Shown one piece after another: positions 1 through 52,217 of a stretch of DNA of 64,000 nucleotides. Source of the DNA: Pegea sp. RAD2-039 (taxonomy: Eukaryota > Chordata > Thaliacea > Salpida > Salpidae); contig JAQGEQ010000349.1 of NCBI GenBank assembly GCA_034620365.1, positions 62,001 to 126,000 on the forward strand, in the 5' to 3' direction. The translations under genes were made by a program, and so were the position numbers. The notes beneath the pieces are model-generated. The model did no database searches, was not told the DNA's origin, and saw only the letters and a program-made list of their open reading frames with translations. Every line of letters begins with the position of its first letter. The stretch's first letter is position 1.

Positions 1-599
1 AACATATCGTGACGTCATCAAATCATGAGGTGAATATAGTCAGAACACATGACGTCATCAAGAAAAAGTTGTTTAACTCAAAAAAGTTGAAACAGAGTTC
101 ATCTGGAATAATTTAGAAAATGAATCATCAAAAGAAGGAATATTTGAAGATTTTGAAATCATGATAATTACTTCAGTCAATTTCCGATTTAATCTTTAAA
201 CAAAAAGTTCAAAAGTTTAATTTTCTTTTCAATGACGTCATCAGCGATTTATTAAGTGGAAGTTGACGCTTGAGTGATTTTGTAGAAAGCGAGATTGGGT
301 TTAAAAACTGATTCCAATTTTAAACTGAAATCATCACTGTATTGATGATTCATGATTCCTTTCGCCTAAAATTTGAATTTAAATTAATTTAATTGAAGAA
401 AATCAGGTTCTGGAACGTAAATTGTGAATGAAGTTTCAAATATCTCTGTTCAAAAGTTAACAAGTTGCTTGTAGCAACAATTTTTCATCACTTTTATTTC
501 AACAACAAAAATGTAAATAAAAAACAAACAGAAAGATAACAAACTGTGAGTTTAACAATAACAAAAAACTATTGTTTCAACAGTAAGTAAGAAAAACAG

Positions 600-1172
600 A
601 TAAGTTGACAGCAGCGTGGTCGACAGAACTTAAATGGTTGAGGTCACAAGGACGTGTCCTAGAAACTGTTCAAAGAATTATACTGGCCACTATTTTGGTC
701 CATGTGGTTTCCCCGGAAACCAAAATCGCAATAACTGGTCACATTAGCTAAACGTAACCAGAGTAACCCCAAAATTGATGACGTCATTCGTGGTCTCACA
801 TATTAGATGATTTCGGGAAAGTCCCCCAAAACAGGGACTGTTGTTTCCCACCGTCCTGGTCCTGATCTTGTGATTACTTGGGACCTCTTTGAAGTCCTCA
901 TCAACTTCAATAGAGACGATCACTGATGACGTCATCAACGTCTTTAGATGTTTTTGTCGAAATATTTGCAAAAATGAAATTGAAACTTTTGATCTAAATC
1001 GAATCTGAGATATTATCTATGATGACGTCATCAGTTTTCATGAGTCAAGATAATGACCATCGCTTTGGTCAGCGCGATATATCCATCGGGACAGATGACG
1101 TCATAAAGTTTGAAGAGATTGTTGAGATCAAATACAGAATCAAATACAGAAGAATCAACATCTATTAGTAAT
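600..1172 (-). pseudogene. Possible Vps62-like membrane-gene remnant or 3' part
   Basis: On the minus strand an open segment after an acceptor-like TAATAG (about 1172) reads ...LYDVICPDGYIAL..., closely matching ...FYEIICPDTYVALGV... in the neighbouring gene at 1520-3176. A phase-0 join (donor ATG|GTCATT near 1050, acceptor TCTCAG near 1006) would link it to an open segment running to a stop at 744. The same 5' segment also reads, in another frame, as a hydrophobic signal-like peptide starting MLILLYLILYL. No complete structure or membrane segment was found, so this is either a decayed paralogue or a gene I cannot assemble. The flanking 1-600 holds palindromes but no gene I can support. Confidence 0.3.
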
Positions 1173-1519
1173 CAGAAAGTTTTATAAATTTCTAAAAATC
1201 AAAAATTGTTTAGTTTAATTTCACTCGTTAACAAGAAAGTCTGAATAAAATCAACTTCTTAAGATCCACCAGAAGCACCTTACTGATCTCTAAGAAGTAT
1301 CTTACTGATCTCTAAGAGCTCGCTTCAAGTTTAGATCAACTTTTCTACATCACTAATAAATAAAAAAAACAATCTTAAAAAAAAATTGATTTATTTACTA
1401 AACACTTAAATTTCAATAAAATTTGAATTCAGTGAATTTCAACAAAAACTTTTTTATAAAAAAAATGTTTCCAAATTTATCTTTAAAATTGATAAATTGA
1501 AAAAAAGGACATTAAACCC

Positions 1520-3176
1520 TTAAACATAAATAGGTGCGACTGGGACAGGGTCCTGTGGTGCCGATGATGAAACCAAAACATGATTTCCGAAATGATTTAA
1601 TCGAAAATAATTGATCTGATCTTCATCTGAGCTGATTGTTTGATAGATTTGCTCCATGCTCACTTTATCTTCATTTTTACAACGAAATCGAAAGTTTTTA
1701 TCAAATTTTTTGAATATGAAATAAAAAGAGATCACAAAAACTGTCGCTACCAAAACAGGGATCAAAATTTTAAGATAATCATGATGATCTTCATCTTGAG
1801 ATTCAATTTGATTGGATTTATCTTCTTTAAAAGTATCTAAAGATACAGGACTCCATTTTAGGGCATAATATTTGATGATTCTAAAAGGGAATCTCACAAC
1901 TAGGAATTGAGATTGATGAAGCTCATACAGATCTGTACTCTTATAATCAAATCTAGAAATAGAGATGGGTAATGACGTCATCAACGCGATTTTTACTCAC
2001 ATGACCCTCTTTTGAAGCGTGGTTGTCTGTACCAAACTTTTATGGACACATTTGTATTTGCTTTTTAAAGGTGTACTCAAAATATCAGCTGATGCCACAC
2101 CTAGGGCCACATATGTGTCAGGGCAGATAATTTCATAAAACTTCATTTGAAGTGGCAGGGCAGAAACGGAATGGTCCAACTCGAAACCAATGTCCTTGAA
2201 GCCAGACGGTGACGCCAAAAAGTCTGGATGATTTCTGTAACAAACCATCAGATGTTTGAGTTTAAATTACTGATGACGTCACCTAGCTATGACGTAATCG
2301 ACTTCGTTGCCATGGTGACAGCTTTTCGTTGAAGCGACTACTCCAAGATGAAAAAAATCCCCTTCTTCTGGTAAAGTTGCTTCCCAGACGGAGCCTAGAC
2401 TCAATTCTCCTAAACAATCCCCTCCTTGGACTTTCACAAACGTGCCAACATCTATGACGTCATGATGACGTCATCAACACGTGATTACAAACACTTGATT
2501 ACCTTCTGATGGTAATGGATGACAATTAAGAGCGAAGACAGGATTTGATTCGATTTGAATGAAAGATGAATTTTTCCAAATCGAAGACGCTATTTGAAAA
2601 ACTGGAGGTCTGGAAAAGAGGATAAAAAAAAAGGGTCTTTTCGATCTTCATCTTACTTGATCAGTCTTCCAATAACTGTCTTTGTGACTAGGTCTTTGTT
2701 GATACATCGGTATTCAGAATCATCTTTTTTATACAGATCACTTATACTTACGTAATTATTTTCACATTTCATCATATAACCTCGCGGAAGACCTTTTTGA
2801 ACCAAACTTGTTGTCTTTAATCTATATCTCTTCGATGTGACGTCATCACTGTCTCTAAGGATCGAAATAATTGATAATTTTTGTGAAGTCATTACTTACT
2901 TGGCAACTATTAAATTTGTTGGTGTGACGTCACAACTTTTAGGACTGAAGATTTGTCCTATATTGACGTAATCACTTGTAGGTGAGATGGCGACCCATAA
3001 ACTTCCGGAGTTCCCCGGAAACTGATGGATACATTTTCCTCTTCGTACTAAGACGAAGTTATCTTCATCAGTTAAAGATCTTTCTGTAAAAATTTATGAT
3101 GAGATTTTAAGAAGATTTTAGGTTTAATCTTACTGATGAGGATGAGGAAGATTAGGATTATTTTCAACAATTTCAT
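1520..3176 (-). CDS. Single-pass membrane protein with tandem Vps62-like repeats
   Basis: Seven exons join with consistent phases: 3134-3176, 2900-3083, 2657-2854, 2503-2609, 2283-2451, 2001-2234, 1520-1952, giving 455 residues. The first exon encodes a hydrophobic signal peptide (MKLLKIILIFLIL) and ends in phase 1. The ectodomain has two tandem modules: SLWVAISPTSDYVNIG and LPRGYMMKCENNYVSI, then SVWEATLPEEGDFFHLG and IICPDTYVALG. Each module ends with a Cys-containing strand such as YKCVHKSLV. This W-x-A-x-x-P...LG pattern resembles Vps62-family beta-rich domains; that call is inference. A membrane segment LKILIPVLVATVFVISFYFI and an acidic cytoplasmic tail of about 55 residues follow. Introns are 45-75 nt, and several contain the CRE palindrome. 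Function unknown; cell-surface location inferred. Paralogous to 3884-5023. Confidence 0.72.
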
Positions 3177-3883
3177 TTTATATCTTCTTTTAAAGTTCTT
3201 GAAAGTCAGGAATTTATAGAAATAAAAAAATCAGATTTTATAAGAAATCAAAAAATTGAATAAAAAGTTTTATGGTTTGAAATAAAAAGTTCAAAAGTAC
3301 AACAAAATAAATTTGAATATTTTGTAAATGTTTTTTTATAATCTCTTTCTGATATATTTTATTTAAATTCAGTAAAAAAAAGTTTTCATATTTTCAAAAT
3401 TTTATATAAAAACGAAAAACTAAATTATCAAAAAGATGTTTTGAAACACTTTTAACGAATCTAAACTATTTTGTTTCTAAAACTTGAAGAATCATTTTCT
3501 AATGATTTATAGAATTAAATTTGAAACTAACAACCAAAAGATTCTTATTTTTCTCGATATAATTCTATTAAATCATTTATTAAAATGCAAATAAGGTAGT
3601 AAATAAATAACTTCAAATAATTGAATTAAAAACTCATTTTACTAAAAACTATTAACTTCTGTTTTCGATTATCTGAAACTTGACACTATATCCATCTAAA
3701 ACCAAATATCAATTTACATTCAAAGTACATTTTATATCTTTTTTACAGCCTTAGGGTTTAATTTTCACACCATGACAAATTACAAGATATTCTAGAAACT
3801 GTTTTTTTTTTCAGTTTTACGAAACGTGCCAAAAAAACCCAAAAATTCATAAAAACACCGAAATAAATAAAAAAAACAACTTT
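3177..3883. other. AT-rich intergenic spacer
   Basis: Lies between the start of the first Vps62-like gene and the stop of the second. It is strongly AT-rich with no convincing exon, and it contains none of the CRE palindromes that fill the flanking genes. It should hold the promoter of the 1520-3176 gene and the 3' UTR of the 3884-5023 gene, but no specific element could be identified. Confidence 0.6.
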
Positions 3884-5023
3884 TTAATGAACGTGAAAAT
3901 TATTAAAATCTGGAATGCTTTCAACGGAAGCATCTAGATAAGGATTCACAACTGCTGCTTTTGATTCTCTATGTGACGTCATACGATCTAACATGACGTC
4001 ATCATCATGAGGTCCGCCAGTATATGAAATATTAATATTGTCGCATCTTATTGCTGATGACGTCATCGCAGTTTTATTTAGAGCGCTGAGTGAATCGTGG
4101 TCGGCAGGTGGCGCTGTTGAGGCTTTTCTGTGAAAATTTTAATGATTAATCGAAATGAATGACGTCAGTGATGACGTCACGAACCGTTGACGTCGCATCC
4201 AGTAACTAGTAAGTCCTACTATAAAGATGAAGCTTGTGACAACGGACAAGGAAATTGTTACGTTCTTCGTTTTCGAGTTTTTAGGAGATTTAGGATCATA
4301 AGATGTTATTCGAGGGCTTCTAGGTTCTATTACGTCATCGCTTTAATTATTAGTGACGTCATCAACTACTTACTTGGATCGATGATTTGAATAGTAGTAT
4401 TGTAGTTTGGAAAGCTTTTTAAACAGCGCGCGTATTGAGTCGTGACGTCATCATCGTTGTTAAACACAAAGAAAAATGAACTCGAAGTTGACTTTAGCTT
4501 CCAGATGACGTCACTAAGATGACGTCATAATTATTCCGCAGATATATTGTGATGTTTACAAACCTAGGGACTTTTTCAATTTTTACCATTTTGGTTACTT
4601 GAGTAGCTACACACCAAAAGCTGTTTAGTTGAGGCGCTTGATTTGATGACGTCACTACCGCGCTAATAGATGTAAATGAAGGCGGGCACAGTAAACGCCA
4701 AAATACAAAAACTCCATTTTGTCGAACTTTGATAAATTTTATTGGTTCTTTTAGAAATTTATTTTTCCTGAAAGTTTATTTCTTCGGGATTTTTGTCAAA
4801 AAGCCACTTTAGTAACTGACCTGGCAATTGGTATCATTACAGTGGTAGGAATGACGTCATCATTGACGTAATACTGCCCTAGAGCGACAAACTGTGAGCT
4901 GAAGTTATCTGCTTGATAGTATTTTGGTAATATTGGTTTGCTTTTAAAAAGTTTTGTGGAAAATTGTGAAAAAGCCAAATTAGTCGAGCTCCAAAAAATA
5001 GAAAATAGAAAAAAAATATTCAT
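3884..5023 (-). CDS. Single-pass membrane protein with one Vps62-like module
   Basis: Five exons keep one frame: 4821-5023, 4587-4767, 4374-4491, 4185-4326, 3884-4127, giving 295 residues. The chosen Met (MNIFFLFSIFWSSTNLAFS) begins a typical signal peptide. The ectodomain contains FSSQFVALGQYYV and then FWRLLCPPSFTSISAVV with WCVATQVTK. These match the repeat pattern of the upstream gene at 1520-3176, so the two look like tandem paralogues; the Vps62 likeness is inference. A membrane segment (VTISLSVVTSFIFIVGLTSYW) is followed by MRRQR as stop-transfer signal. The tail of about 85 residues is polar and carries MTSS and DDDV from in-frame CRE palindromes. The weakest boundary is the acceptor before 4491 (CTAAAG). 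Ligand and role unknown. Confidence 0.68.
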
Positions 5024-5333
5024 TTTTGAATCTACAGGATTTGTGACAAAAGTCATGAAAAAGAAAACTTCTAATCTTTCTCTAATTTTAAATAAACTTT
5101 TTGAATAAAAAAAAAGATCAAACTGAAAACCTCTAAACTTTTTCAAAAATTCAATTATATCTCATCTAACTAAACATTTTCAACTAACAACTTTGATGAC
5201 GTCACACGCCACATTTACTTGTCATATCCTCTTTCAATCATAAGTTGTGACAAGTAACTTTATTGAGCAATTTCAAAACTGCTAATGACGACATAAAGCG
5301 ACGATGACGTCATCGAAACAACATTTTTCTCAT

Positions 5334-6236
5334 TTATTCACTTTCAATATCAAAATGCTCATCAATTGTAAAAGCTGAAAACGCTGGACTCGGATTTCGC
5401 GAGATTTCTCTTGGATTCAAATTGGTGACGTCATCGTTCGGCGTCTCGCGACTGAAAACGAAATAATTAAAAATCGAAGTTTGAAGAATCAAATTTTTCT
5501 CAACTGAATTTTATCTCTTCTGAAAATTACCAGGAACGAAACCGCGATGGTTGCTAGCGCAAAAATTGAACCAATCAAAACAGCCATCCAAACTGATGTG
5601 AAAAACTTCCCTTGTGACGTCATCACTTTGTCTGTGAATCCATTTTCAATGACGTCATCTTAAAAACTAAAATGGTTTTTTACCTTTATGACATTGAAGT
5701 GTTTGGTATCGAAGCGAAAAGTTGCCACGTGATCTGATGACGTAAGACCACGTGATGTTGACGTCAGATCCACGTGATTTTAAAGGGATGACATAACGAG
5801 GCTTAGTGACGTCACAAATGTCACGTGAACGAAAAAGTACGCAATTTGATGTTTTGGTGATTGGTTTACGATAGAAAATGTAGCACCAAAATGGATTCTG
5901 TAAATTTATGGCCCCATCTGTTGACAAAATGATAAAAACCCAAAAAATCTCTGAATATTTTCACTTACTTATAACAATGTTATCTGTTGATAAATTCAAA
6001 TTAAAATCGTTAAAACTGAAAATGATAAATGTGTCTGACGTCATCAGCACAGTCTGATTTCGGCTTGAATTTGCTGATGACGTCACTGCCTCTATTTTGC
6101 TGACGTCATCAGCTGTGAATCAAAACATAAGAACTGAAACCTGTAAAAGCTTCTAATTTAAACTTGTACCTTTCAAATACGTCACTGCTGACGTCATCAG
6201 CAGTATTTTGAGAAACTTTGTGTAAAAGCTGAACAT
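5334..6236 (-). CDS. Small single-pass membrane protein, CUB-like ectodomain
   Basis: Five exons (6170-6236, 5969-6112, 5684-5917, 5505-5631, 5334-5451) give 229 residues with matching phases 1-1-1-2. The signal peptide is MFSFYTKFLKILLMTSAVTY. The ectodomain has FIIFSFNDFNLNLSTDNIVI, several Cys (FWCYIFY, NCVLF, DICDV, TLQCH) and a late strand NITWSYVIRSRGNFSLRY. The 'F-x-x-F-x-L-x-x-x-x-D-x-I-x-I' string resembles the central strands of CUB domains, but this is a weak structural guess. Several N-glycosylation sequons are present. The membrane segment is FFTSVWMAVLIGSIFALATI, followed by FRRDK and an acidic tail of about 45 residues. The donor at 5505 (GTTGAG) is non-ideal but the only one keeping phase. 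It is packed head-to-tail with the gene below, about 310 bp apart. Confidence 0.68.
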
Positions 6237-7269
6237 CAGAAGATAATTAATTAATTGTTTATTAAAAATAAGATTAGTTTGAATAATAATCAAAAGCCTA
6301 CACACTTTTATCACGTGACGTTTTTAGAACAATTATTTAAATTATTTAAATTGTTTAATTGTTTAATTTTTTAATTTATTGTTTAAATGGATTGCGTTGA
6401 TTGGATAATTTTTTAATCGTTTTTAACCAACTATAATTGGTTTTGGATTCTATTTTTTCTGATCTAGTGACTTGCTTCATTATTTTAAAAGTTTTTATTT
6501 TTTTATTTTAAGTAAAAATTTGAGTTATTTTTGACTTTTAAAGTAGCTCATTAGCTCCATCTAGCGGTTGATTAATTTCGTATTTTAGATTAGAAATTTG
6601 ACTCATTTTTTTAGCTTTGTGTTTAATTGACGACATCTTTTAAATTTCAAAGACATTTGAGACTTTAATTTTTAAGATTTTTAAAGTAAATAGCGAAAAG
6701 TTTACTTGTAAAAGCTACACCTTTTTAAGATTTAACAAATTTTTCCTCTAGTTTGAAAATTGTGTAAAACTTATTTACTTTTTTGCTAATGTTGATTTTG
6801 AAATCTCTCTTTTTGGTAATTTAAGAAATATTTTTCATATTTCGATTGATTTCACTAAAGTTTTAATAAATTGATAAAATCATTTTCTGCTGAGTCATCT
6901 TTAACAAACTCTAATCCTATAATAAAGTCACGAATTTAATGAATGAAGTTTTTCTAAAATTTGCTGTAGTTGAAATATATTTGAAAAATTTCGAAACGTC
7001 AAAGAATTTTCAGGACTTTATTTTATTGAGAAATTTTAAACATTTAAACTTGAAACACAAAAATCTTATCTTATCAAAATCAAACAAAAAATATTTCAAG
7101 CAAAAAACGAATAAATCTTAATTGACTATTTATCCAGAGATGCATATAAGATAAACAGGTGGAATGCTTCACACAATCATAAAAAAAACCAAATAACCTA
7201 AACTTTCAATGCTGGTTTTTCCTATAAAAATATTTGAAATTATTGAATACTGAGATTATATGATTTAAT
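6237..7269. other. AT-rich intergenic region without recognised gene
   Basis: Between the start of the CUB-like gene and the 3' end of the mucin-like gene. Open segments here are short and of low-complexity composition. The CRE palindrome, dense just before it (last at 6189-6196), is absent. One CACGTG lies near 6312. Confidence 0.55.
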
Positions 7270-8769
7270 TTAACTCACTAAATTGTTTAATTCATTTAAA
7301 GGAACTTGTTGTTCCTTCTCCTTATCGTCTTTGATAGTATACCCACCATTATCCCTTGCCATTCTAGTAAAAAAATATTTATTATTTAAATCACTTGAAA
7401 GTTTGGAACGTACCTTCTACGAAAGATTATTACTGTTATGACAATACCAGTAATCAGAAAACAAACTGAAGCCACTATTGTGATTGTTATTAAGCTCTTG
7501 TTGCCTATTAATCAAAAGTTTGTTAATTGTACCTACAGAAATATTAGTTTATGTAAATACCTGCTGTTTTTTGTCCACTATGTGTTTTTTCGTTCTTGTT
7601 TTGTTTAACTGTTGTTGCTTCTACTATTTTAGCTTTTGATTCAGTTGTTGTTGCCTTTGTTGTTGTTGACTTTGTTGTTGTTGGTTCAGTTGTTGTTGTT
7701 GTTGGTTCAGTTGTTGTTGTTGTTGGTTCAGTTGTTGTTGTTGGTTCAGTTGTTGTTGTTGGTTCAGTTGTTGTTGTTGGTTCAGTTGTTGTTGTTGCCT
7801 TTGTTGTTGTTGTTTTTCTTGTTTTCTTTGACTTTTTTACTTTTGGTTTTCTTGTTGTTGACTTTGTTGTTGGCTCGGTTGTTACTGTTGTTTCTTCTGT
7901 TGTTGTTGGTTCAGTTGTTGTTGTTGCCTTTGTTGTTGTTGTTGCCTTTGTTGTTGTTGTTTTTCTTATTTTCTTTGGCTTTTTTACTTTTGGTTTTCTT
8001 GTTGTTGACTTTGTTGTTGGCTCGGTTGTTACTGTTGTTGGTTCAGTTGTTGTTGGTTCAGTTGTTGTTGGTTCAGTTGTTGTTGTTGCCTTTGTTGTCG
8101 TTGGTTTAGTTGTTGTTGTTGTTGGTTCAGTTGTTGTTGTTGCTTCTGTCGTTGTTGGTTCGGTTGTTGTTGTTGTTGGTTCAGTTGTTGTTGTTGTTGG
8201 TTCAGTTGTTGTTGTTGCTTCTGTCGTTGTTGGTTCGGTTGTTGTTGTTGTTGGTTCAGTTGTTGTTGTTGGTTCAGTTGTTGTTGTTGGTTCAGTTGTT
8301 GTTGTTGGTTCAGTTGTTGTTGTTGGTTCAGTTGTTGGTTCAGTTGTTGTTGGTTCAGTTGTTGTTGTTGGTTCAGTTGTTGTTGTTACTTCTGTTGTCG
8401 TTGGTTCAGTTGTTGTTTTACTAGCCGTTGCTGCAGTAATTGAAACAAAAACACCAATTAGAGATGAAAGAAAAACTTTTTAAACTGAAATCAAATATAT
8501 TTACTTGGACATTCATAACAGTAGTCATACGATGTTGGTTTGTTTTGCCCCACGCACCAATAATACCATGCACTAGATTGGCAACCACCAGTGTAAGTTT
8601 TTCCTCTATATATAAAACTTTGAGGGCATTTACTTCCATCTTTGTAACATTGTTCTTCAGCTGCATTATAATAATTTGTTAATAATTTTTCAAATGATGA
8701 AAAAGATATCTTACCTGAAGTTATATTTATTATCTTCAATAATATACATATAAAAAAAATTATTCTCAT
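7270..8769 (-). CDS. Mucin-like single-pass membrane protein with Cys-rich head
   Basis: Exons 8715-8769, 8505-8660, 7561-8430, 7414-7504 and 7270-7363 join in phases 1-1-1-2 and give about 421 residues. Exon 1 is a signal peptide (MRIIFFICILLKIINITS). Exon 2 is a symmetric phase-1 module with six Cys (EEQCYKDGSKC...GGC...YWC...YDYCYEC), likely a small disulfide domain of unknown family. Exon 3 is a 290-residue stalk almost entirely of Thr with Glu-Pro, repeating TTTTEP, as in O-glycosylated mucin stalks. Exon 4 is the membrane segment (ITITIVASVCFLITGIVITVIIF) with RR after it. Exon 5 is a 31-residue charged tail. The first intron (54 nt) is a multiple of three and open, so a retained form is possible. 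Unlike its neighbours it carries no CRE palindromes. Confidence 0.78.
7630..8425. repeat. Coding (CAA)n-type repeat, TTTTEP units
   Basis: Plus-strand GTTGTTGTTGGTTCA units (the minus strand encodes Thr-Thr-Thr-Thr-Glu-Pro) are repeated dozens of times, with larger duplicated blocks such as the near-identical segments around 7840-7900 and 7970-8040. Length polymorphism between individuals is likely. Long open frames on the plus strand here are antisense artefacts of the repeat. Confidence 0.9.
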
Positions 8770-10409: not shown

Positions 10410-10728
10410 CTGATGACGTATAAACAACAAAATATTAATAATAATAAAAATAATATAAAAATAAGAAACCTTTTTTTTGATGAATACTGAAATGTGTTGA
10501 TGTTGTGACTGTATCTGTTACACGAAGCTATTGTATAAAAAGCAATTTTCTAATCTAATTAATCAATATCTAAAAATGAAATGACGTCAAACAAAGTGAC
10601 AAAAAAAAGAAAAAAAAGAAGGAATTAATAATTCAGTAGATTTGAAAAAAACCTCTTTTTCAAGTACTGATCACAAAGTCAATAAAATTGAATCTAAGAC
10701 ATTTTAATCCGTTAATTGATGTCTTCAG

Positions 10729-13700
10729 AGACATCGATCAGAGATCATTGAACATCAAGAAGATTATCATCGAATCGCGCGACATTTAGAAGATTTAAGA
10801 ACCATGTGTGGGATTAATGAACGAAATATCCTTATTTCAAGGTTTGTGCCCCTAAAATCTTCCGCCCCAAATATTTCCATCTCATTCCAGGTACAGTGAA
10901 TGTACCAAGTTCTTAGGACGCGTTTGTGACGTCATATCTGCTCGAGAAGACGCGATAGAACGTCTTCAAGCGTTCAGTTCCTTTCTCAATTCTTTAATTG
11001 ATAAAATCGAGCAGATGGAAGAAAAGGTCAAGGGGCGTGTGACGTCATCAGATGTTTTGACGGAGTGGCATCTCAATTTCAAAGATTTGGAAAATATTCT
11101 CGAAAAAACTAACGAGTAGGTTGATATTTGGCGGGAAATTACGAAATTAAAATGATGACGTCATCAGAAGCGGGAAAGGACTCGACTCCGTGATTCAAGC
11201 CGCCCAGTTGACGAGTTACATGATGACGTCATCAATCGATAAGCGACAGCGGACTACCGTGAAAGGACTTCTTAATCGCTTAGATGCAAGAACAGAAGTA
11301 CTTCGTTCTGACGTCATAATAAAAAAAGACCATTTTGAGGACGTGGACAGGATGTGGCAGGGCTTCATGGACAGGTGGACAGATTAGATTTGAAAAAAAT
11401 TTAAGTTTTTACCGAAAAAATTACAGAAAAGAAAGATTGCTGAAATCTATCGAAGATTTAGAAGATAAAGCGGATGATGACGTCATCATAGAACCCTTGA
11501 ATCAAGAGATCATTCAACAATTGATTCGAAAATTTGAATCTTATCAAGTGAGGAAAAGCTCTTTTTTTTTTGGTGATTTTAAAAGATCTTGGTTTCAGGA
11601 ACAACTTGATGCAAAAAAATATGAATTATCTGCATTAGAAAGTAAAGGAAGACAACTTTATGAAACTGATTCCAGCCAAAAAGCTCTTATTCTTGGTGAG
11701 TGATGACGTCATCAGTTGGTATTCATTTTTAGATATTTAAAATGTTTTATTCAAAGTGTTTGTAACAGGATATCACATTTAACTTGATTACTTTTTTTCT
11801 ATCTCTAATTATTACATCAGATGAAGTAAAAAATTTATTACTTTAAATTCTTTAATCAATAAATATTACATTTGCTTTAACAAATCTTATCTCCATAGAA
11901 AACTTCTAAAATGAAATTTTAAAACAAAAATATTATCAAAATATTCCTAAAGACTATTTTGTAAATAAAAAATATAAAAATATTTAGATTTGAGAAAAGT
12001 TATTTTCAAATTTGTTGGGTTTTTGAATGAACCAATCAGAAGCGTTCTAGAACTTCAATTGAAAACTATTTATTTGTTTTATTGGGTTTACAGAACAACT
12101 GAAATACGTTCAAAACATGTTTGAGGAAACCCACGAACTAATTATTGAGCAATTAGAGAAGTTTGCAAGCGTGACGTCACAAGTTCGCGATTATGAACAA
12201 GTGCGTGACGTAGTCGCTCGAACTCTACAAAACGCTGAAGCGATTGTGACGTCAGCAGAAAAGCAACAAAATTTCAATGCTGATGAAGTGAAACGTCATC
12301 AAGCAAAACTAGAAGTACGTCATCACGTGATGACGTCATATATGTTGATGACGTCATGTCTACAGATGCTGAAAAAAGAACTTGAGGAGAAACAAGCTTT
12401 GATGGACAGTTTAAGTGAAAAAGGCAAAATTGCGATTAACGGGTCCAAAGGACATTTTGGGGCGCAAATAACTGGTCAGAATGTCGAGCAACAAATTGAA
12501 CATCTCATCGACAGGTATAAGCGGTGATGACGTCATCAGCTGTTTGTTAATGACGTCATCGATGTAGATATTTGGATGTTTCGGATAAAGTCGAAGAAAT
12601 TGGAGAAAGTTTTAGTGAGCAGCTATTACTTTGGAAAGAGTTGACTCGTGTTGATGACAACATCGATGAATGGATGACGTCATCAGTAAATGAAATGAAT
12701 GCGTCATTATCAACTCTTGATGACGTCATCAAGTTGCAATCAAAATTGGCTAAAATCAAAGAAGAGCTTGCTGAGTGAGTTGATCACGTGTCTTGTCATG
12801 TGATGACGTCATCATGTGTTTAGAAAAAAACAAATGTATGACGTCATTGAGAGCCAAATGGAGGAGATCCAAAAAAGTCGGAGGAGATTTGGGGTCGGGG
12901 AGATGTTAGAGATTATTCAGATCAGTGACAACATCAAATCGAAATTAGAAAAATCCGCAAACGTCTATCGACAGGTTGATGACGTCACATGTTTCGTGTG
13001 GTTGTTACGTCATCGTGTGTGTAGGCAAAGAGCAAGATGGAAGATTTTAACTCGCAGAGGACGATGTTGGAATCTTATATCGATCAACTGATTGATTGGA
13101 TGGAACATAAAAACCTTTTTCTGATGAACATCCACAAAAATCTCAAAGTTGACAACTTGAAGAAAGCACGAGTACGTCACGTGCTTGTGACGTCATCATC
13201 AATATGACGTCATCGTTTGCAGGATGTTAATTCTGAGCTTCTATCTCATCATGATGACATTGAATCCTCTAAAGAGCATCTTAACAGTCTCTGTCGGAAG
13301 TATCATATGACGTCAGAGTTGTCATCACTACAAGAAAAAGTCACTAACCTAGCTGGGCGTTATGACGTCATCATCAAATTCTCTGCAAAAGGTTGGTGTA
13401 GTGTGGATGACGTCATTATTGATGATGACGTCATTGTTTTTAGTGCTGGAAGATCTGATGAAGGATTTAGAAGAGAGGTTTAATTCATCTGTGACTGATT
13501 TTTATACTTGGCTCACTGCAGCAAAAGATCTAGTCTCGCTGTGTGTCGTGACGTCAGAAGATGACGTCATCACTATCGAAGAAAAACTAAAGGTTGATTG
13601 TGAAGATGTCTTGAGTGACATTTGTCAATCTGTTTGCTTTTATCTGATTAGAAGATGGAAGATTTTACTGATAGGCTATCTGAAGGTAAAGATATTGTTG

Positions 13701-41800: not shown

Positions 41801-44800
41801 GATGACGTCATAGGAAGATGAAAAGATCATTTGAAATCTTCATGAAGAAGATCGAACGTCCGGAAAATCTGATGATGGAAAATCGACTCAAAGTCGCGAT
41901 TCTTCTCTGGAAGACGATGAAAATGATGACGTCACAACGTCAATACGTCATCAACACAATTTTAGGAGAAAGTGAAAAATTCAATGAAAATTATCGTCGC
42001 CTTTCTGATTGGTTGAATCGAAAAGAAGCAGAAATCGCGTTGATTAATGAACACAACTGTGACGTCATCATGAGTAAAATGCGTGACGTAAGCATCTTTT
42101 GATGATTGATTCGTTGTGATAATTATTTGATGACGTCATAGGATTTCGCGATTGGAAATGATCATCGCGCGATCTTGAGAGATCTTGGTGAAGATTTGAG
42201 ATCTTCAGGAGCCGATGAGGTTGAGATGAAGATGAGAAGGATTGATGAGCGATGGAGTTATTTAGAAGAGTTGCTTCGCGCGAGGTTGATGACGTCATTA
42301 GTGCGAATTAGGAAATAAATTTCAGTTTTTTTGTTTTAGGTCGAAAAAAGTGAAAGGAACTTTGAAAGCTGTCAATCAACTGAACTTGTGTATGATGGAG
42401 CTTCGTCATTGGCTGAAAGCAATTGAAGATAATTTGAATGAGCCAATCAGATTTGAGAAATGCTCAGATGAAGATATCAAGTTGAAATTGAAAGAACAAC
42501 AAGTAAGCGACTAATTTGGCTTTTTGTAGTTTTTTATTTTCGGAAATTATGGTCAGAAAACGGTTCAAAATGGTTTTAAGTGGGTTTTGGTGGTTGAATT
42601 AGGAAAAGTACTTAAACCAGCACTTAAATTAGAAATTTTGAAGCATTTAGACGATAAAAATAAAATTTTGAAATAATATAAAATTAAGAAAAGTTCTAAT
42701 CGAGCGCCAAAAACCAACTTTTTGATTTGGTGAGAAAAATTTAAAGTATTTCAAATTATATAATGAGAGAAAGAGGAAGAAAAAGTTGAAATCACTCATG
42801 CGGAACGATGCATTTATCAGCTGTTATTTCTTGAATGTCATTAGAAAGTATAAATTTGAGATAGAAGTTTGTTTTGGTTTACAATTTTCTTAGTTCAGAA
42901 AATATTCTTGATAAATTTTGTGGCTTTAAAAGTTACTTTCAAATAGAATTGATTTTCTTGATTCGAAAAAAAAGGAGTATTTATTGATTATTATAAGAAT
43001 CAGGAATCAGTTTTGACTTTAAGTAAAAAACTTGACCAATAATTTAAGAAAATTAAATTTTCAAACTTTACTAATAAATAAGAATATTTCTATTTTTATA
43101 AAAATATTAAAAAAAATAAAAAAAAAATAAAAAATAATAAATTAATTTTTAAATTTCTATTTCTTCAACAAAATCAGTATTAATTAAAGTCACGTGGTTT
43201 TAAAAAAAAAGGAAGTTAAACTCTCGGCTTCTAGTCACGTGGTTCACTGTTTGCAGTTACTTATGACGTCATAATTACTTCGATTCGTAAAATTGTAAAT
43301 CAGTCAAAGTTGTTGATGACGTCATCGCCGTTCACGGTGAAGTTTTAAATTTGATCACGTGTTAAAAATGATTTTAGAATAAAAGAATTTAACATTTTTA
43401 AATTTAAATTATTTTTTGTTTAGATTGAAAAAAGTTTATTCTTTTTTTACTAAAAGTAATTTATTTTTTTCTTATTTTGATAAAAATAGAAGTTTTATGA
43501 AAGTTTTTTTTTCATCAAAATATATTTTGTAATTTCTTACTTAACTATATTTAGAAAATAAAAAAGAAACTTTTTTAAAACAAACTTTTCCTTGTTTGAA
43601 AAAATTCTTTTATTTCAAGATATTAAATTATATCTGATGACGTCATGATTATATTATTTAAGATAAAATTTAAAATTGACTTTTTATTTGATAAATATTT
43701 TCTTGAAGTTTAAATCTGAAATTTTTTGTTTTTTTGAAAGTTGGTTTTTTACTGAAAATGTTTCAAAATTAAATTTTAATTTTTTTGTTTAATTTTATTG
43801 TATTTACTTGTGTATTTAGTATTTCTATAAATTTATAATAAATATTTGTTATATAATATATATAAATATTATTTATATTCAAATTATCATAAAAATATAA
43901 TTAAATTATAATTTAATAAACTGAAAATTTTTTAAATTTATAAATCAGCAAAAATGAAAAAGTTTTTTGGTTGCTTAGTAACTCTCCTCAAAGATGCTAA
44001 CCGGATCAACAATTAAAGACGAATCAAGCATCTACATCAACACTCTTCAAGATCTTCTAAATGAGGAAGACTCTACTGATCTTATAGATCAGATCATTTG
44101 TAATTTTTGTTGTAATTCCGAATTACGTCATCATTACCATGACAACCAAGGTCCACAAAAATGGTTCAACAAACGGTCCAGATCTTACAGTATGCCTAGT
44201 AAAGTGACAGTGATGACGTCACCGTATGTGACGTCATCAGTACGACGTCAACATTCGGTTCATGACATGTACTACAGTTTGTCGTTAGTGGATATTCCTG
44301 AGAAACTGTTAGTTGATGATGACGTCATTGATGACGTCACAGACGATTCGTCACTTGATGGCGCTCTCGAGTACTTTCGCGTACTGACACCTAGTGGTGG
44401 AAGTGAAGAAGGTTTTATGACGTCAACACCAAAGCGAAATAGTGCTAAGATGATGACGTCATCAGTAGTTAGTGAAGATTGTGATTTTACGTCACATGGA
44501 TACTGTACTTGTTCTTTCTGTCAAGGGGAATCCCCGATCAGGGAATCTTCAGTTGAGGCATCAGAACAGAGTTCAGGGTTTTGTTTATGTAATGAGGTTG
44601 GAAAAAAGGGCTTCCAATTCAAATTTCTAAATTTTTAATTTTTTTGTAGATTATTCAAGAAGAGATCAGTTGTCATAGCAACGGCGTTTCGTCTGTCATC
44701 AATCTTTGTGAAGTTCTTCTTCATGATACAGATGCGTGTCCGGAAGAGAGAGATCGTGATGAGATCCGGGGAGCTTCCAGTAGCCTCTCGAGGAGGTGGA

Positions 44801-47800: not shown

Positions 47801-50031
47801 ATCGACAACGTCACAAACAATGACGTCATCGCTTCTCGATTACACGGTTTGTTTAAATAAATCAAGAGTCGAAATTTGATGACGTCATCATTTTAGGTGA
47901 CTTTTCTGAAGGAAGAACCTCTCAGCTAAAAATGGTGAAAAAAAAATTAATTTTTTGAAAATGATTTTTACGATTTTATGCAAATTAGTTCGATGACGAA
48001 ATAGCATCGAAACGAAGCTCTCCAATCAGCATCTCTCAACTCCACTCTGGTGAACTAGGAATGACGTCATCAGCTTCGACTACGTCATCAGTCAATCAGC
48101 AGCTACAACATGACGTCACTGCAGTGATGAGTTGGTTACGTGGCGCAAGTCAAAAGATACAAAGAAATGATGACGTCATCAATAATCGCAACGTCACTGT
48201 GAATGATTTAGAAGAAATTGTTCGCGATTTGAAGGTGACGTCATCATCACCATGGAGATAGGTTTCATTTTTGGGGATTTTTTTTAATAGGATCTTCAAC
48301 GCGAGATCGAATCGAGAAGATGTCTTCATACATCAATCAATCTGATGATGAAGTCTTCAACTGATCAGAAGATCAATACTTTAAACAATAAGTGGACTGA
48401 TGTTCGGGAAATGATGACGTCACAGCGTGAAAATTGTCGCCGAAGTTTATTGGAATCAATTGTTAGTTTTTAGAGGATTTTTTAAAAAGGGAAATTTTTG
48501 ATGATTTTTTTGATTTTTAGGATTTTCACAACAAAATGGCTGAAATCGAAAAGTTTTTAGAATCTCAAAAGATAAAAAGATTCCTTGATCCTCCTCATCT
48601 TCAATCAACTGATCTTAAGATGATGACAAAACCAAAAGTGCAAAAAGCCAAAAAATCTTTCAAACAATTCCGATCCGAAACACTTGGCTACCTCCTCCAA
48701 GTAACTTCAACTCACGTGACATCCCAAAAAAAACTCCCAATTGATCCTTAGATCAGCCGGATGCAAGACATCTCGAACGAAATCGTGTTAAACAGCGAAA
48801 TACGTCATCCGAGACCTCCCGACGGAGCTGTAGAGATCTGTAACAAACTCTCTGATACATCTGAAGGACTCCGGATTCTTCTCGAATCTTTAAATCGTCA
48901 ACTTGATGTCTTTCAACGTCATTTACAACACACTACGCGACAGGTAGTGACGTCATCATATCTACACGATGATGACGTCATCATCTTGCAGAGAAAGTCA
49001 AGCTCCGAAGATTCGAGTGTTGATACGTCTCTTCATGCTACGTCATCACCGTTGAAGTTAAAGATGCTACGTCATAAGGTGGGTAGTGACGTAATAAGTG
49101 TTGTGACGTCATCAGAGTTGTTAGAATCGAAGTTAATTTTTGAGTAGTTGAAAATTGAAATTCTCTTTTTTTGTTTTTTTTCTTCTGATCTTTGATGATC
49201 AGATGGATGATCAGGTAGATGATGATCTTGTTACTATGGAGATCTCACAAAGGTTGGTTGGTTGTCATGGAGTCGTTTGTGTTGTCATGACAACAAGCAT
49301 GATTGGTGGATTAACAAACACACAAATTAACAGACAAATTAACAGACAAATTAACAGACAGAAAATAAAATATTCTTATTTTGTTGGCTTTTTTTTTTGC
49401 TGAAAAATTTTGTTTAAAACTCCAAAAAAAACTAAAAAAAATTTTAGTTAAATTTTAACAAAACTTGACAAAAGAATTTGGGAAAGTTTTTCATAAATGA
49501 TTAATTTAAATTGTTTAAATCTTCAAAAAATATTTAGTTTGGAAATTTCATTTTGAAAGTTTGAAAAAAAAAACATTTTAAAATTTTAATTAAAGTTTTT
49601 CAACATCTTAATTTTCTTTCTAAACTTTTGGTTTTTAAGTTTTGTTGATGACGTTGATGTTAGATGACGTCATCACTGAACGTTGACATTTTGTTGTGAC
49701 GTCATCACGCTTTTGTGAAGCATGAGAAAGTTTTGACAGCATGTTTCCAATTTTATTTTTCAAAATTTTAATTATAAAAATTTTTTACAGCTTCGACAAA
49801 GACGAAACCAAAACTACTAACTACGTCACCGATGACGTCATCACTTCGAAAAAAGCTTTCTGGAAACGCTCCTGTTTGGCTGCATCACTTTTTTATCTAT
49901 TTTTTTTCCTTGTCAGTATAGTTTGTTCAATTCAACCACGTGACCCTGTAGCCACGTGTTTGAAGACCAATAATTTGTACTGGTCCGTTTATCCTACTCT
50001 CCAATGGTACCACGGTCCTCCTCCTATTTGA
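10729..50031 (+). CDS. Giant spectrin-repeat KASH protein (nesprin/SYNE family)
   Basis: About 127 exons totalling about 21 kb of coding sequence (about 7,000 residues) follow one another in consistent phase. The product is heptad-rich, Glu/Lys/Gln/Leu-rich helical sequence with regularly placed Trp (for example DNWLTTATDRF, SGEKWLL), as in spectrin repeats. It ends in a membrane segment and a KASH peptide finishing in PPPI. In this family the KASH domain sits in the outer nuclear membrane and binds SUN trimers in the perinuclear space, while the rod reaches cytoskeleton. Length is comparable to nesprin-2. The first exon found (10729-10841) enters in phase 0 from an acceptor-like TTCAG; an ATG at 10804 could start a short form. 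No CH domains were seen in the window. In-frame CRE palindromes insert DDVI and MTSS throughout. Two boundaries are unsure (20743/20800 and 38430-38460). Confidence 0.9.
14875..16581. repeat. Intron with (TTTATTCA)n satellite
   Basis: This 1.7-kb intron is AT-rich to about 15670 and then consists of about 890 bp of an 8-bp tandem unit TTTATTCA (15671-16560), very homogeneous in the middle and degraded at both edges. It ends just before the acceptor TTTTTCCAG at 16581. The homogeneity suggests recent slippage expansion or active homogenisation. Confidence 0.95.
16582..20979 (+). other. Nesprin-like gene, exons 18-36
   Basis: Exons: 16582-16797, 16850-16940, 16992-17201, 17251-17372, 17567-17804, 17852-17985, 18041-18227, 18284-18439, 18489-18653, 18705-18845, 18901-19117, 19166-19283, 19550-19673, 19726-19930, 20001-20155, 20209-20322, 20374-20526, 20579-20743, 20800-20979. 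Spectrin-type helical sequence. The 20744-20799 intron is optional: its sequence is open and coding-like (LKESLKDFERSELFF), but reading through would hit a stop at 20811, so I infer it is removed. Most introns are 45-60 nt and many have two CRE palindromes. Confidence 0.72.
19284..19549. repeat. 18-bp minisatellite in intron
   Basis: Tandem copies of GAAAGATCAAAATCTTCT with variants (CAG/CCG, GAA) fill 19284-19525. The unit is quasi-palindromic (AGATC...GATCT-like halves). Open frames on both strands (DLSEDFDLSED on minus, LLKDQN on plus) are products of the 18-bp period and are not genes. Confidence 0.9.
21094..21437. repeat. Tandem duplication, two 170-bp copies
   Basis: The segment starting GTAAGTTGAGTAGATCTCC and ending CAATTATTAGATCTCCACT occurs at 21094-21263 and 21264-21437 with few differences (CCGCGCGCG versus TCCGATCGCGCG; CTTGG versus CCCTGG). 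Near-identity shows a recent duplication. Both copies include the left part of the dispersed element. Confidence 0.92.
21120..21655. mobile_element. Dispersed non-autonomous element, copy 1
   Basis: From TTTTGACGTCTACCGCGCG to GACAGAAAATTTCCCAGGTCAC, matching 27925-28195 over about 270 bp apart from the inserted 170-bp duplication and flanks. It is GC-richer than its surroundings, has internal GACAGAAAATG repeats and no coding capacity. Presence at two unrelated introns of one gene argues for transposition. Class (MITE, SINE or other) is not clear; no convincing inverted termini or tRNA-like head was recognised. Confidence 0.7.
21655..22120. repeat. 11-bp minisatellite TGATCTTCTTC
   Basis: About 42 nearly perfect copies of TGATCTTCTTC. 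Eleven bp times three gives the 11-residue antisense repeat KKIRRRSEEDQ, an open frame that is an artefact of the repeat. The array abuts the acceptor of exon 37 (22134) and could serve as its pyrimidine tract. Confidence 0.95.
22134..26551 (+). other. Nesprin-like gene, exons 37-53
   Basis: Exons: 22134-22295, 22349-22527, 22580-22763, 22819-22911, 22970-23173, 23226-23448, 23501-23664, 23714-24060, 24124-24229, 24287-24405, 24458-24665, 25323-25550, 25599-25697, 25752-25857, 25907-26112, 26165-26307, 26362-26551. All junctions keep phase. Spectrin-type helices with Trp near the first helix (TLDTWLDDVI, EKWLLSKSS). Exon 44 (23714-24060) is the longest here. Confidence 0.75.
24666..25322. other. 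Intron without recognised feature
   Basis: 657-bp intron. It contains single CRE and CACGTG palindromes near 25068-25105 and imperfect repeats of AGCCAAAAGAAGTC/GATTGCCAAAAGTC around 24765-24870, but no exon or identifiable element. Confidence 0.6.
26552..27517. repeat. Intron filled by 11-bp minisatellite (TTTTGATCTTC)n
   Basis: After a short unique start, 26602-27508 is about 82 copies of an 11-bp unit. The first block is mainly TTCTAATCTTC, the rest TTTTGATCTTC, with a short TTCTGATCTTC block near 26915-26960. It is the same family as 21655-22120 and again runs into the acceptor (TTTTTACAG). Ordered variant blocks indicate stepwise expansion. Confidence 0.95.
27518..32063 (+). other. Nesprin-like gene, exons 54-70
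   Basis: Exons: 27518-27629, 27682-27869, 28416-28603, 28654-28792, 28844-29014, 29070-29222, 29640-29831, 29885-30031, 30082-30237, 30342-30493, 30545-30703, 30752-30938, 30987-31157, 31230-31352, 31405-31593, 31640-31777, 31829-32063. Continuous spectrin-type sequence. Exon 70 carries an in-frame X-box-like string at 31923-31935 that also contains a GTAACC donor-like site, so a shorter form is conceivable. The 417-bp intron 29223-29639 holds AT-rich sequence with CRE palindromes near 29513 and 29556. Confidence 0.75.
27925..28200. mobile_element. Dispersed non-autonomous element, copy 2
   Basis: Begins TTTTGACGTCTACCGCGCG and ends GACAGAAAATGTCCCAGGTCAC. It aligns with copy 1 with substitutions such as TAATGACC/TGATGACC and GTTCGCG/GTTAGCG. 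A further GC-rich stretch to about 28310 (GGGTCTAAGAAG, GGGGTCCGGGGGTCC) may belong to the element or to its target. No open frame. It lies in intron 27870-28415. Confidence 0.7.
32064..32762. other. Intron with atypical GC-richer segment
   Basis: About 32150-32640 differs from other introns: GC-richer, apart from one CRE core next to the donor it has no palindromes, and it has moderately long open frames on both strands (minus 32291-32578, plus 32455-32646). Phrases such as CTTATTTGCCC and CCCTGATCAGGGG suggest an inserted fragment of foreign origin, for example an old element or retrocopy. I do not recognise its protein. Confidence 0.4.
32763..38653 (+). other. Nesprin-like gene, exons 71-98
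   Basis: Exons: 32763-32915, 32965-33144, 33196-33294, 33349-33442, 33495-33610, 33661-33887, 33939-34252, 34306-34528, 34616-34678, 34907-35019, 35072-35158, 35215-35320, 35374-35543, 35601-35684, 35739-35872, 35925-36068, 36176-36337, 36392-36529, 36693-36806, 36862-37035, 37084-37234, 37291-37450, 37499-37591, 37643-37829, 37883-38101, 38161-38262, 38311 to about 38440, about 38450-38653. The last internal junction is unresolved: the apparent gap would be only 17 nt, so a frameshift or unusual splice site is possible. Exons 74-76 (33349-33887) are Ser/Thr-rich and look like a flexible linker between rod segments. Confidence 0.7.
38834..38911 (+). mobile_element. LINE 3'-end fragment in intron
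   Basis: AGAATGTGTTAGCGAGAGG, a short hairpin (GAGGTGC...GGCACCC), CACGTTTATTGTA and a tail of AATAAT/ATT repeats match the 3' terminus of the LINE at 63728-63801. Only the last 75 or so bp are present, so this is an extremely 5'-truncated insertion. It lies inside the intron 38654-38923 and ends about 10 bp before the acceptor of exon 99. Confidence 0.85.
38924..42502 (+). other. Nesprin-like gene, exons 99-112
   Basis: Exons: 38924-39036, 39090-39222, 39275-39464, 39512-39853, 39909-40078, 40367-40498, 40590-40697, 40747-40957, 41005-41174, 41487-41519, 41561-41755, 41814-42087, 42142-42284, 42340-42502. Spectrin-type helices continue. Codon use shifts to more Asn/Lys/Phe with lower GC in 38.9-40.5 kb. 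The 33-nt exon 41487-41519 is inferred only from phase (donor GTGACA) and is the least certain. Intron 40079-40366 and intron 41175-41486 are AT-rich with no other feature apart from CRE cores in the latter. Confidence 0.7.
42503..43993. other. Large AT-rich intron
   Basis: 1.49-kb intron before the non-spectrin exon 113. Very AT-rich. CRE cores at about 43263, 43318 and 43638 and CACGTG sites near 43193, 43236 and 43356. No exon recognised. Confidence 0.6.
43994..44837 (+). other. Non-spectrin Cys/Ser-rich linker, exons 113-114
   Basis: Exon 43994-44596 (201 residues) and exon 44650-44837 join in phase 0 and sit between spectrin-type blocks. They are not coiled-coil. They contain Cys pairs (ICNFCCNS, GYCTCSFCQGES, GFCLCNE, EEISCHSNG), a Ser-rich basic stretch (KRSRSYSMPSK) that looks like a phosphorylation site cluster, and acidic DDD runs from in-frame palindromes. 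Three short CxC or CxxC motifs could bind metal, but no known finger is complete. A non-helical interruption before the last repeats is known in other giant nesprins; homology of this one is not established. Confidence 0.65.
44838..45937. other. Large intron, AT-rich
   Basis: 1.1-kb intron. The left part (44870-45060) contains imperfect GATTCTTCTTC/AAGACTTTT repeats, there are two adjacent CRE cores at about 45103 and 45115, and the rest is AT-rich without a recognisable exon. Confidence 0.55.
45938..49252 (+). other. Nesprin-like gene, exons 115-126
   Basis: Exons: 45938-46088, 46431-46544, 46596-46808, 47379-47569, 47621-47846, 47897-47934, 47989-48234, 48291-48461, 48521-48700, 48752-48943, 48992-49078, 49203-49252. 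These encode the membrane-proximal rod, with clear Trp positions (VMSWLRGASQKI, EELMVWLTEKDLLL). Exon 119 contains a non-helical stretch (SSGVSLEWDPYPN). Exons 125-126 are short and polar, forming the juxtamembrane linker. Intron 46809-47378 is AT-rich without other features. Confidence 0.72.
49253..49790. other. Intron before KASH exon
   Basis: Contains an X-box-like palindrome at 49281-49294, four tandem 12-bp units ACAAATTAACAG at about 49318-49365, CRE cores near 49662 and 49697, and otherwise AT-rich sequence. Confidence 0.65.
49791..50031 (+). other. KASH domain exon (gene 3' end)
   Basis: The last exon enters in phase 2 and encodes an acidic linker with DDVI from a palindrome, a basic KRS stop, a membrane segment (LAASLFYLFFFLVSIVCSI) and a 30-residue luminal tail ending SVYPTLQWYHGPPPI before TGA at 50029. 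The terminal PPPx is the SUN-binding end of KASH peptides. A Cys (VATCLKTNN) lies 23 residues before the last residue, the same spacing as the Cys that forms the intermolecular disulfide with SUN proteins in vertebrate nesprins; that role is established for the family and inferred here. The SVYPTLQWYHG block parallels the family SFHPMLRYTNG. Confidence 0.95.
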
Positions 50032-52217
50032 CCTCACGTGTTTATGACGTCATAATCAGTATTTAGTTGTCTAGCAACGGCCTTTTATTAAAACTGTGTT
50101 TTTTTGTGAAATTTTTGTAGTTTAGATAAAACTTCGCTTTTAATACAAAGTAGTCGATACGAAGTGCTGATAAAAAAGTTTTTTTAATTTAATTTAATGA
50201 AAAAATGATTTCGAAAAAAAATTTGGAAACACTAATTACAACTTTTAAATTAATCAAATTCTAGCAAATGCCTAAAAAATTTTCAAAACTTTTTAACACT
50301 TAAAGTTAGTTTTGTAGTTTTAAAAAAGTTTCTAAGTTTTGTTTTTTTGAATTAAATTTCTTACAAATGATTATTATTTCATTTAGATAATTTGTAAAAA
50401 ATACATTTAAAGTTTCATTAATTCTAATTTTAAAATTATTTTTCTTTTATTCACTACATGACTGCAGCAGACAAGTTATAGCAGAAAGATTCAGAAGATG
50501 TAGAGGACATGTGACACAAACATTGTGGATCAAAATTTAATAAATTAAGTAAAGGAACTGACATGTATATATGACTTGTTACTTGCATCTATGTTTATTT
50601 TATGAAAATATTTATTAGTTCACTAGATGTTATTAAAGCTAAGAAGTGAGTTAATTTGAAGAAGATCTCTAAAGGTTTATCCAGGATTTTTATAGAATTC
50701 GTTGAAGTTGAGATAATTTTCAGTGGAGGTAGCAAGTCAGAATTGTTTATATTTTAAATCAAAACTAAAAAAACTTACTGAGATGTATAGATAACTTCTA
50801 TTTACTTCACAACAAGCTTGTAGTTGATTTCTAAATATTAAACCTTTAAAAAATACTTTAAAATACCAACTGGTTGCTTTTACTATTAATCAATTAACTA
50901 ATTACAATAATCAATTGATATTGTAGCTGATTTAGACTAAGAAGGTTTTGAGTTTGATATTTTATTTTAATTAGCACTTGGTTTTGTTGTTGGTTTTTTG
51001 TAGTTCTGTTGTTTTTTACATCAGTAACTATTCCGTTGTATAAATCCTTTAGAGAGATATGAAGGATGTGATGTAAGACACAGAATCTACAAAGTTTTAT
51101 TGGTTTCTTTGCTTTCTTCTTTATCCTTCAGTTGTTTGTAGAACAGAAAGCGCTCTTCAGAGCGACAGTTAAATTTTTCTGATGTAATAAAATAATTTTG
51201 TTAAAAAAAGAATTGTTTTAAAACCTTTAGAAAATCAAGCAGCAAGTTTCAGTGTTTCAATAAAAGTTTTTAATAAGTTTCTTTATTTAAAAGATTAATA
51301 ACTAATTCCATAACTGGCACAGCTATTCTTATAATCAATCTTTGTGGTGCAACTTAAAACTTTCACAAACTTTTGTTTCGAATCTCAGTTTGCTAAATTA
51401 TTACCAAAAAAATAGACCAAGTTATATCAGAAAATGTAAACTTTTTGATAGAAATCCAAACCTTTTAAAGTAATTGAATAATTTTTCTTAACAAAACCTT
51501 TTAAAACTAAAGTTTATTTAGGTCTTTTGTAAATAAAATAGTTTTGTATAGACAATATAATAAATAAATATATATATTAATATAATATATATATAGTATA
51601 TTCATGATTCCAGTTATACTTGAAAGAAATTTAATTTAGAATTTTAAAATCACAGAAAAAAAAATTAAACTAATTTAAATTTTTCATGATTTAATTTTGC
51701 AAATATAAATGTTTCCTTGCAAAATTTTTAACATGGTTTGATTTTTTTGAAAAAAAAGTTTAAAATAATTTGGCAGAAACTAAAAACATTTGTAAGAATT
51801 AAAAATGATATTTGGATAAATATTTTATTTTAAATAAGTATATTTCAATTACTTGCAAATAAAAATAAAAATATATTTTTGATAAAATCTTATTCATTTT
51901 AAACTGACAAATTTCAAACTGTTATAAACTTTCAAATTTATAATTTAATAAAAGTTTATTTACAAATTATTTATTTTCTATATACAAACATTTTAAACAA
52001 CAATTTAATATTTGTAAAGTTTGACTTTTATTTAAACCAAAATTTTGCAGAATGTCTACGGTTAGCATTTTAAGAAAGTTCAGATATTTTAAGTTTTTAA
52101 TATTTTAAATTCTACAAAACAATTTTTGAAACTCTAGATTTTAAAAAGGACTTTGAGTTTTAAAACAAAATATATCAGCAGAGTGAACAATTAAAGATTA
52201 TTAGGAAAAATTATTGC
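50032..52217. other. AT-rich intergenic region
   Basis: 3' UTR of the KASH gene should lie at the left edge; the last CRE core (50045-50052) is 14 bp after the stop codon. The rest is AT-rich with no exon recognised. Around 51140-51175 an imperfect hairpin (GCGCTCTTCAGAGCG) is present. Confidence 0.6.

Follow-up and report, generated by a model that had tools for sequence, protein, structure and literature searches.

Abundance of the palindrome in the window, the contig and the genome

What force could iterate one exact eight-base palindrome hundreds of times along the body of an animal gene? The window, that is, the whole 64-kb stretch of tunicate DNA analyzed here (bases 62,001–126,000 of the 158.5-kb contig C24), contains 290 copies of TGACGTCA, the consensus CRE core. 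They form a dispersed, unstranded field at positions 10–50,052, with the first copy at 10 and the last starting at 50,045, and a count over the whole window finds no copy at 50,053–64,000. The 14-mer TGATGACGTCATCA, also unstranded (for example at 11,153–11,166), occurs in 27 full copies. The original prediction of an excess orders of magnitude above expectation was upheld, with a first-order Markov simulation of bases 1–50,052 yielding a mean of 1.05 and a maximum of 5 copies of TGACGTCA (20 runs), and 100 dinucleotide shuffles a mean of 0.00 full 14-mers. The predicted density of about 12 copies per kb, in contrast, describes the densest stretches only (with maxima of 14 per kb inside the window and 16 per kb on other parts of the contig), as the mean over 1–50,052 is 5.8 per kb. 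Window and sample sites also bear out an exact core with varying flanks and a dispersed rather than tandem arrangement, with a few local exceptions, such as a 25-bp unit in one intron.

Genome-wide (105.7 Mb), TGACGTCA occurs 27,792 times (mean 0.26 per kb) versus 969 times for the reversed word, a control 29 times lower, and the 14-mer TGATGACGTCATCA 1,972 times versus 0 for its reversed word, so that the k-mer count proposed earlier as a check puts the octamer well above background outside this locus. Among 8-mers with at least 20 both-strand counts in a tandem-masked sample of 192 kb (C24 plus six chosen 10-kb pieces), TGACGTCA was the most enriched, with 535 sites at 239 times the dinucleotide expectation, a value that reflects a dense-biased sample, since the 10-kb pieces (L027–L032) were picked from dense places in the first site listings. 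On C24, the field occupies much of 2–112 kb, with a gap at about 34–49 kb, and continues upstream of the window; the 46 kb that follow it (112–158.5 kb) contain no TGACGTCA. Sites are clustered, with 13 pairs less than 10 kb apart versus 2.6 expected among 167 sampled sites, which comprise 100 of the 136 places of one flank variant and 67 of the 78 of another set (three reverse-strand doubles and eight of nine rows on contig C58 were left out of the latter). The 100 places listed for the first variant sit on 54 contigs, and thus the excess extends beyond this locus and does not stem from a fault in local assembly. We therefore regard an artefact of composition, repeats or assembly as having a negligible chance of being the explanation: the region does contain many tandem arrays, but the 239-fold excess persists after tandem masking, copies lie on many contigs with distinct flanks, the reversed word is far rarer, and a 97%-identical protein from a separate source (P0001, JGI; see below) has the palindrome-encoded peptides. 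As a separate observation, one flank variant occurs nine times at C58:845,685–923,794, always on the minus strand and at distances of 4–18 kb, and these copies are probably a large repeat array carrying the palindrome.

Genes carrying the field

Whereas the field had been predicted to lie inside one 40-kb gene, it does cover such a gene but also extends over minus-strand reading frames at 1–6,500 (for example 1,520–1,996 and 4,796–5,161), where 35 palindromes start, and over the upstream contig. The gene is nesprin-like, with spectrin repeats and a C-terminal KASH domain (10,581–50,031, plus strand; a home-made model of 129 predicted exons), and its span holds 248 palindromes, 120 exonic and 128 intronic by the predicted exon borders. 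It is closed by the KASH domain (PF10541, E = 6.3e-07; 49,858–50,028, plus strand), and the last palindrome starts 17 bp past this domain. Long near-perfect 8-bp and 11-bp tandem arrays that are open in several frames also occur in the nesprin span (15,672–16,558; 21,653–22,131; 26,600–27,510), and a mucin-like TTTEP-repeat reading frame without a Pfam match lies at 7,544–8,479 on the minus strand. The motif-free flank (50,053–64,000) holds a repeated tRNA cluster (53,267–59,154), in which Pro (TGG), Ala (AGC) and a further 84-base tRNA recur in order and a 2-kb stretch is duplicated at 93.5%, and a palindrome-free non-LTR retrotransposon (60,901–63,639). This element has an endonuclease and a reverse transcriptase domain and stays open for 752 aa, and part of it recurs in genome piece L027 at 78%.

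Beyond the nesprin-like gene, sites occur in a single-exon RBM25 gene on C24, whose best named relatives are from Ciona, Styela and Ciona savignyi, with Clavelina lower, and whose closest match overall is P0001 (97% identical). These relatives put the genome among the tunicates, perhaps as a pelagic thaliacean; a nematode origin, which the intron ends had hinted at, is rejected on this ground, as a search for SL1 gave no signal and was uninformative. A further dense gene encodes a HECT ligase resembling UBE3C (match to PDB 6k2c, E = 3.5e-119), and two more were assigned from reading frames judged by eye, one as a calponin-homology/spectrin gene and one as tankyrase-like; a weak presenilin match under the cut-off was disregarded. 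Twelve loci with bZIP matches carried 0 to 3 palindromes per ~3.1 kb (13 in total), near the genome mean. In a low-power proximity test (<10 kb), the 167 sites formed 2 pairs with 64 homeobox loci versus 2.0 expected, and 1 pair with 86 helicase loci versus 2.7 expected; the homeobox set kept 64 of 71 matches and the helicase set 86 of 93, those dropped being mostly second matches near ones already taken. Neither the drive nor the selection reading weighed below accounts for the choice of genes, which counts against both.

Exon and intron assignments come from our home-made splice model, in which in-frame stops are forbidden by construction and borders are predicted rather than taken from transcripts. 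By this model, nesprin exons hold 120 sites in 21.3 kb, introns shorter than 120 bp hold 95 sites in 5.4 kb (17.5 per kb), and longer introns 33 sites in 12.7 kb (2.6 per kb), with introns of ~50 bp carrying about one palindrome on average. In the calponin-homology gene, the predicted exons (5.4 kb) hold 36 sites and the short introns (1.4 kb) 33. For the UBE3C region, the counts of 28 sites over 3.2 kb of exon and 21 over 1.0 kb of short intron include doubtful model stretches, as this part of the model is wrong at either end, and one of the faulty stretches is a site-rich repeat tail that may be non-coding. Together, these predicted structures support the view that exons and introns are both affected, the exons at lower density. 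The RBM25 gene, for which no splice model is needed, has seven sites in one open frame, five in phase 1 and two in phase 2, and the 184 exonic sites of the three models likewise occupy phases 1 and 2 only; since phase 0 would place a TGA in frame, which the model bars, this restriction is not an independent finding.

Sites gained by substitution

How the copies arose can be read from the sequence around them. Among 141 predicted introns shorter than 150 bp, 44, 47, 47 and 3 carry zero, one, two and three sites, with median lengths of 53, 52, 52 and 70 bp, respectively, and the flat length for zero to two sites indicates that palindromes arise by substitution (the three-site class, with a median of 70 bp, comprises three introns). 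Left and right flanks vary independently, as 60 of the 535 sampled sites have both TGA and TCA where 68 are expected from the margins. At the protein level, alignment of the HECT domain to UBE3C (6k2c) shows NDVI replacing QMLV and DDVT replacing YDET with no gap in either site, although shortly after NDVI the tunicate sequence is one residue shorter than 6k2c. At a third site, 6k2c itself already has DDV, which adjoins a one-residue gap at a doubtful model junction. Sites in this domain thus add no residues, which again argues for substitution over insertion. Lastly, among the 18 units of an array with a 109-bp repeat, 15 carry TGACTTCA, one carries TGACTTTA and two carry TGACGTCA, such that sister units differ by point changes.

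These observations support a gain of sites by substitution, and they contradict the earlier suggestion of a selfish micro-element that inserts, i.e. a 14-mer inserted as a unit whose flanks decay later. The many copies with the same core and the few local tandem units would suit such an element, but intron length is flat, flanks are independent, the HECT-domain sites bring in no extra residues, sister repeat units differ in single bases, and an insertion of 8 or 14 bp into an exon would shift the frame. Copies as inserted blocks, the mark of a transposable micro-element, were not found in intron lengths, flanks or the HECT alignment, and we judge this origin extremely unlikely.

Imprint on coding sequence

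Across RBM25 and the three splice models, the peptide NTG-Thr-Ser is encoded with ACG TCA in 69 of 80 cases, and Asp-Val with GAC GTC in 123 of 160, where codon shares outside the motif would predict ~6% in each case. Such exact codon use at coding sites indicates that the force acts on DNA. The peptides MTS, DVI and DDV are correspondingly 37, 25 and 19 times more frequent than expected, and a practical warning follows, namely that in these predicted proteins they are DNA signatures and not protein motifs. An example is the long open frame at 43,982–44,638 (plus strand) in the nesprin region, whose several MTS, VTS and DDVI peptides are the coding imprint of the palindrome.

In terms of retention, all seven RBM25 sites keep motif-compatible peptides in P0001, as judged by protein comparison only. 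Motif residues changed in 1 of 19 and other columns in 11 of 112 between RBM25 and this closest relative, and no excess retention was demonstrated, a point against the occupancy reading discussed below. One pair of alleles was compared (L015/L016, 99.25% identical), and all three sites were shared.

A bZIP-like signature

The CREB/ATF bZIP consensus palindrome is RTGACGTCAY, and its flank preference is found at the sampled sites, where position −1 is A in 0.71, G in 0.23, C in 0.04 and T in 0.02 (94% purine, symmetrized over 535 sites). Four one-mismatch words are raised above expectation, TTACGTCA (41 versus 6.4), TGATGTCA (49 versus 9.9), TGACGTCG (13 versus 1.9) and TGAGGTCA (11 versus 3.8), each such word having the same count as its reverse complement, whereas the remaining changes stand at 0 to 1.6 times expectation. 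The excess of TTACGTCA fits a tolerated variant of a putative bZIP site, and that of TGATGTCA may be simple CpG decay. Flanks in the nesprin stretch are symmetric between strands (88/89, 115/109 and 64/61), but half-sites are uneven (26 TGACGT without the C versus 43 ACGTCA without the G), which counts against a bZIP explanation. Genome-wide on unmasked sequence, with expectations from flank preferences alone, abutting cores are nearly absent, with one pair at spacing 8 versus 269 expected and one at spacing 9 versus 33, whereas a center spacing of 10 is not avoided (6 pairs versus 2 expected) and spacings of 12–14 comprise 233 pairs. Avoidance of spacings 8 and 9 is the pattern expected if dimers with a footprint of ~10 bp occupy sites separately.

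The genome contains 12 matches to PF00170 (bZIP), among them what we take, from their basic regions by eye, to be CREB-, JUN- and FOS-like factors. The palindrome is thus a putative dimer site for a bZIP of the CREB/ATF/JUN kind, and of the candidates in the original prediction, a bZIP platform over gene bodies fits best, given the palindromic form, near strand symmetry, flanks, TTACGTCA variant and near-exclusion of abutting copies, from which we infer the binding itself. No period of 2–40 bp between copies exceeds jittered controls, so short-period phasing in this range, including as the nucleosome code once suggested, is disfavored. The dense stretch (10–32 kb and 47–112 kb of joined sequence starting at C24:2001) is also rich in CACGTG (63 sites, 10-fold) and CAGCTG (28 sites, 5-fold, and 2-fold in motif-poor sequence), and CGCGCG is raised 9-fold there but far more in motif-poor sequence. 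The excess of CACGTG and CAGCTG counts against both the drive and the selection readings, and several factors, or some more general property of the sequence, may play a part.

Comparison with known iterated motifs

The closest known parallel is HIP1, the highly iterated palindrome of cyanobacteria with the word GCGATCGC. Both are perfect 8-bp palindromes with an exact core and many dispersed copies, in coding sequence too, that spread by substitution, and the tunicate octamer likewise lies far over expectation. The differences are an animal host, the word TGACGTCA, gene-body clusters that are densest in short introns, bZIP-like flanks and the near-exclusion of abutting copies. With the HIP1 word at 6 both-strand counts in the 192-kb sample and a tunicate as host, this is not HIP1; the palindrome works like a highly iterated palindrome yet is a different one. 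The uptake signals of Haemophilus and Neisseria (USS/DUS) are also short words found genome-wide that owe their number to a per-site bias and are visible in peptides, but they are bacterial, non-palindromic and dependent on natural transformation. Among animal systems, known CRE and homotypic CREB-ATF clusters share the 8-bp core and the bZIP-dimer flank preference but are of promoter or enhancer size, in contrast to the tens of kilobases of exons and introns here, and the germ-line PATCs of C. elegans are a dispersed DNA signal along gene bodies but are intronic, A/T-based and periodic at ~10 bp. A limited literature search that included TGACGTCA found no report of such iteration, which does not imply its absence from print.

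Proposed mechanisms: occupancy drive or regulatory selection

Mechanistically, we posit that the sites accumulate one by one through point substitution, driven by bZIP occupancy over the bodies of particular genes, and give this reading a probability of about 0.4. In this scenario, a bZIP dimer of the CREB/ATF/JUN kind would bind the palindrome in the germ line, and an occupied site would be kept or favored, either because it is shielded from mutation or because repair or conversion is biased toward the bound allele, such that the ancestors of this tunicate would have gained sites singly across certain gene bodies. A drive by biased repair or conversion may thus be at work, as in the site-converting variant of the micro-element named in the original prediction. 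Confinement to gene bodies would require an extra assumption, such as germ-line accessibility or transcription. The sequence supports the substitutional gain, the action at the DNA level, the involvement of both exons and introns and the near-exclusion of abutting cores, whereas we infer the bZIP as occupant, the occupancy in the germ line and a per-site bias in place of a benefit to the gene. An occupancy drive acting per site would account for dense short introns, coding invasion and hundreds of sites per gene, but the site-poor long introns speak against a uniform drive unless those introns are young. More tentatively, we suggest a fully site-autonomous form, in which germ-line occupancy by a transcription factor biases repair or conversion to its own site, so that this site fills the gene bodies that are accessible and alters many residues of the encoded proteins while the genes gain nothing. 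If the overall picture holds, the sequence preference of a DNA-binding protein can mold the genome of an animal, and the proteins encoded there, to an extent otherwise known only from bacteria (HIP1 and uptake sequences), and germ-line transcription factor occupancy that biases mutation or conversion becomes testable, as does gene-body selection for one factor.

The main competitor is direct regulatory selection, in which dense gene-body bZIP occupancy is itself useful (through open chromatin, aided elongation or germ-line expression licensed against silencing) and weak selection acts on every site, given a very large population size. The binding-site evidence fits this reading equally well; within the window, the field stops where the nesprin gene does, with none in the next 46 kb of tRNA genes and retrotransposon, and the seven of seven RBM25 sites with motif-compatible peptides in P0001 (protein only) would also suit it. 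However, a single gene carries ~250 sites, some of them in coding regions, where the protein pays for them, and with diminishing returns the last of these would be hard to select, which, as an argument only, favors a per-site force over a gene-level benefit; there is also no short-range period, nor a gene-class pattern in the low-power helicase and homeobox test. Selection is thus a serious though doubtful contender, and we lean slightly toward occupancy drive over gene benefit. A target of a DNA methyltransferase or other DNA modification, with the central CpG modified, is in our view unlikely. A link with methyltransferases has been proposed for cyanobacterial HIPs, and the genome has 11 matches to the DNA_methylase family, several in long open frames; a specificity of 8–10 bp, flanked like a bZIP site, would greatly exceed what is known of animal DNMTs, however, CpG observed/expected is 1.15 in the dense stretch (motif masked) versus 0.73 in motif-poor sequence, and CpG-transition forms are few (49, with ~10 by chance, versus 535 intact). 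Very unlikely, too, is an element acting in RNA, whose self-complementary copies would pair in pre-mRNA, for example joining intron ends. Exactly two copies do occur in 47 of the 141 short predicted introns, but complementarity between neighboring flanks (122 of 300) is below that of shuffled pairs (144.1, sd 6.8), so that copy-to-copy complementarity below chance sets the palindrome apart from intronic pairing elements; moreover, the wobble-tolerant TGACGTTA is not raised (9 versus 6.4) although TGATGTCA is, exonic copies would have no such role, and flanks are symmetric between strands.

Separately, the genome contains long intronless reading frames of the DNA-methylase family (832–873 aa) on contigs C57 (two), C249, C32 (three) and C52. 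They could represent retrocopies or the expansion of a DNMT1-like family; by eye, the PCQ motif is present in frame L036 but lost from L039.
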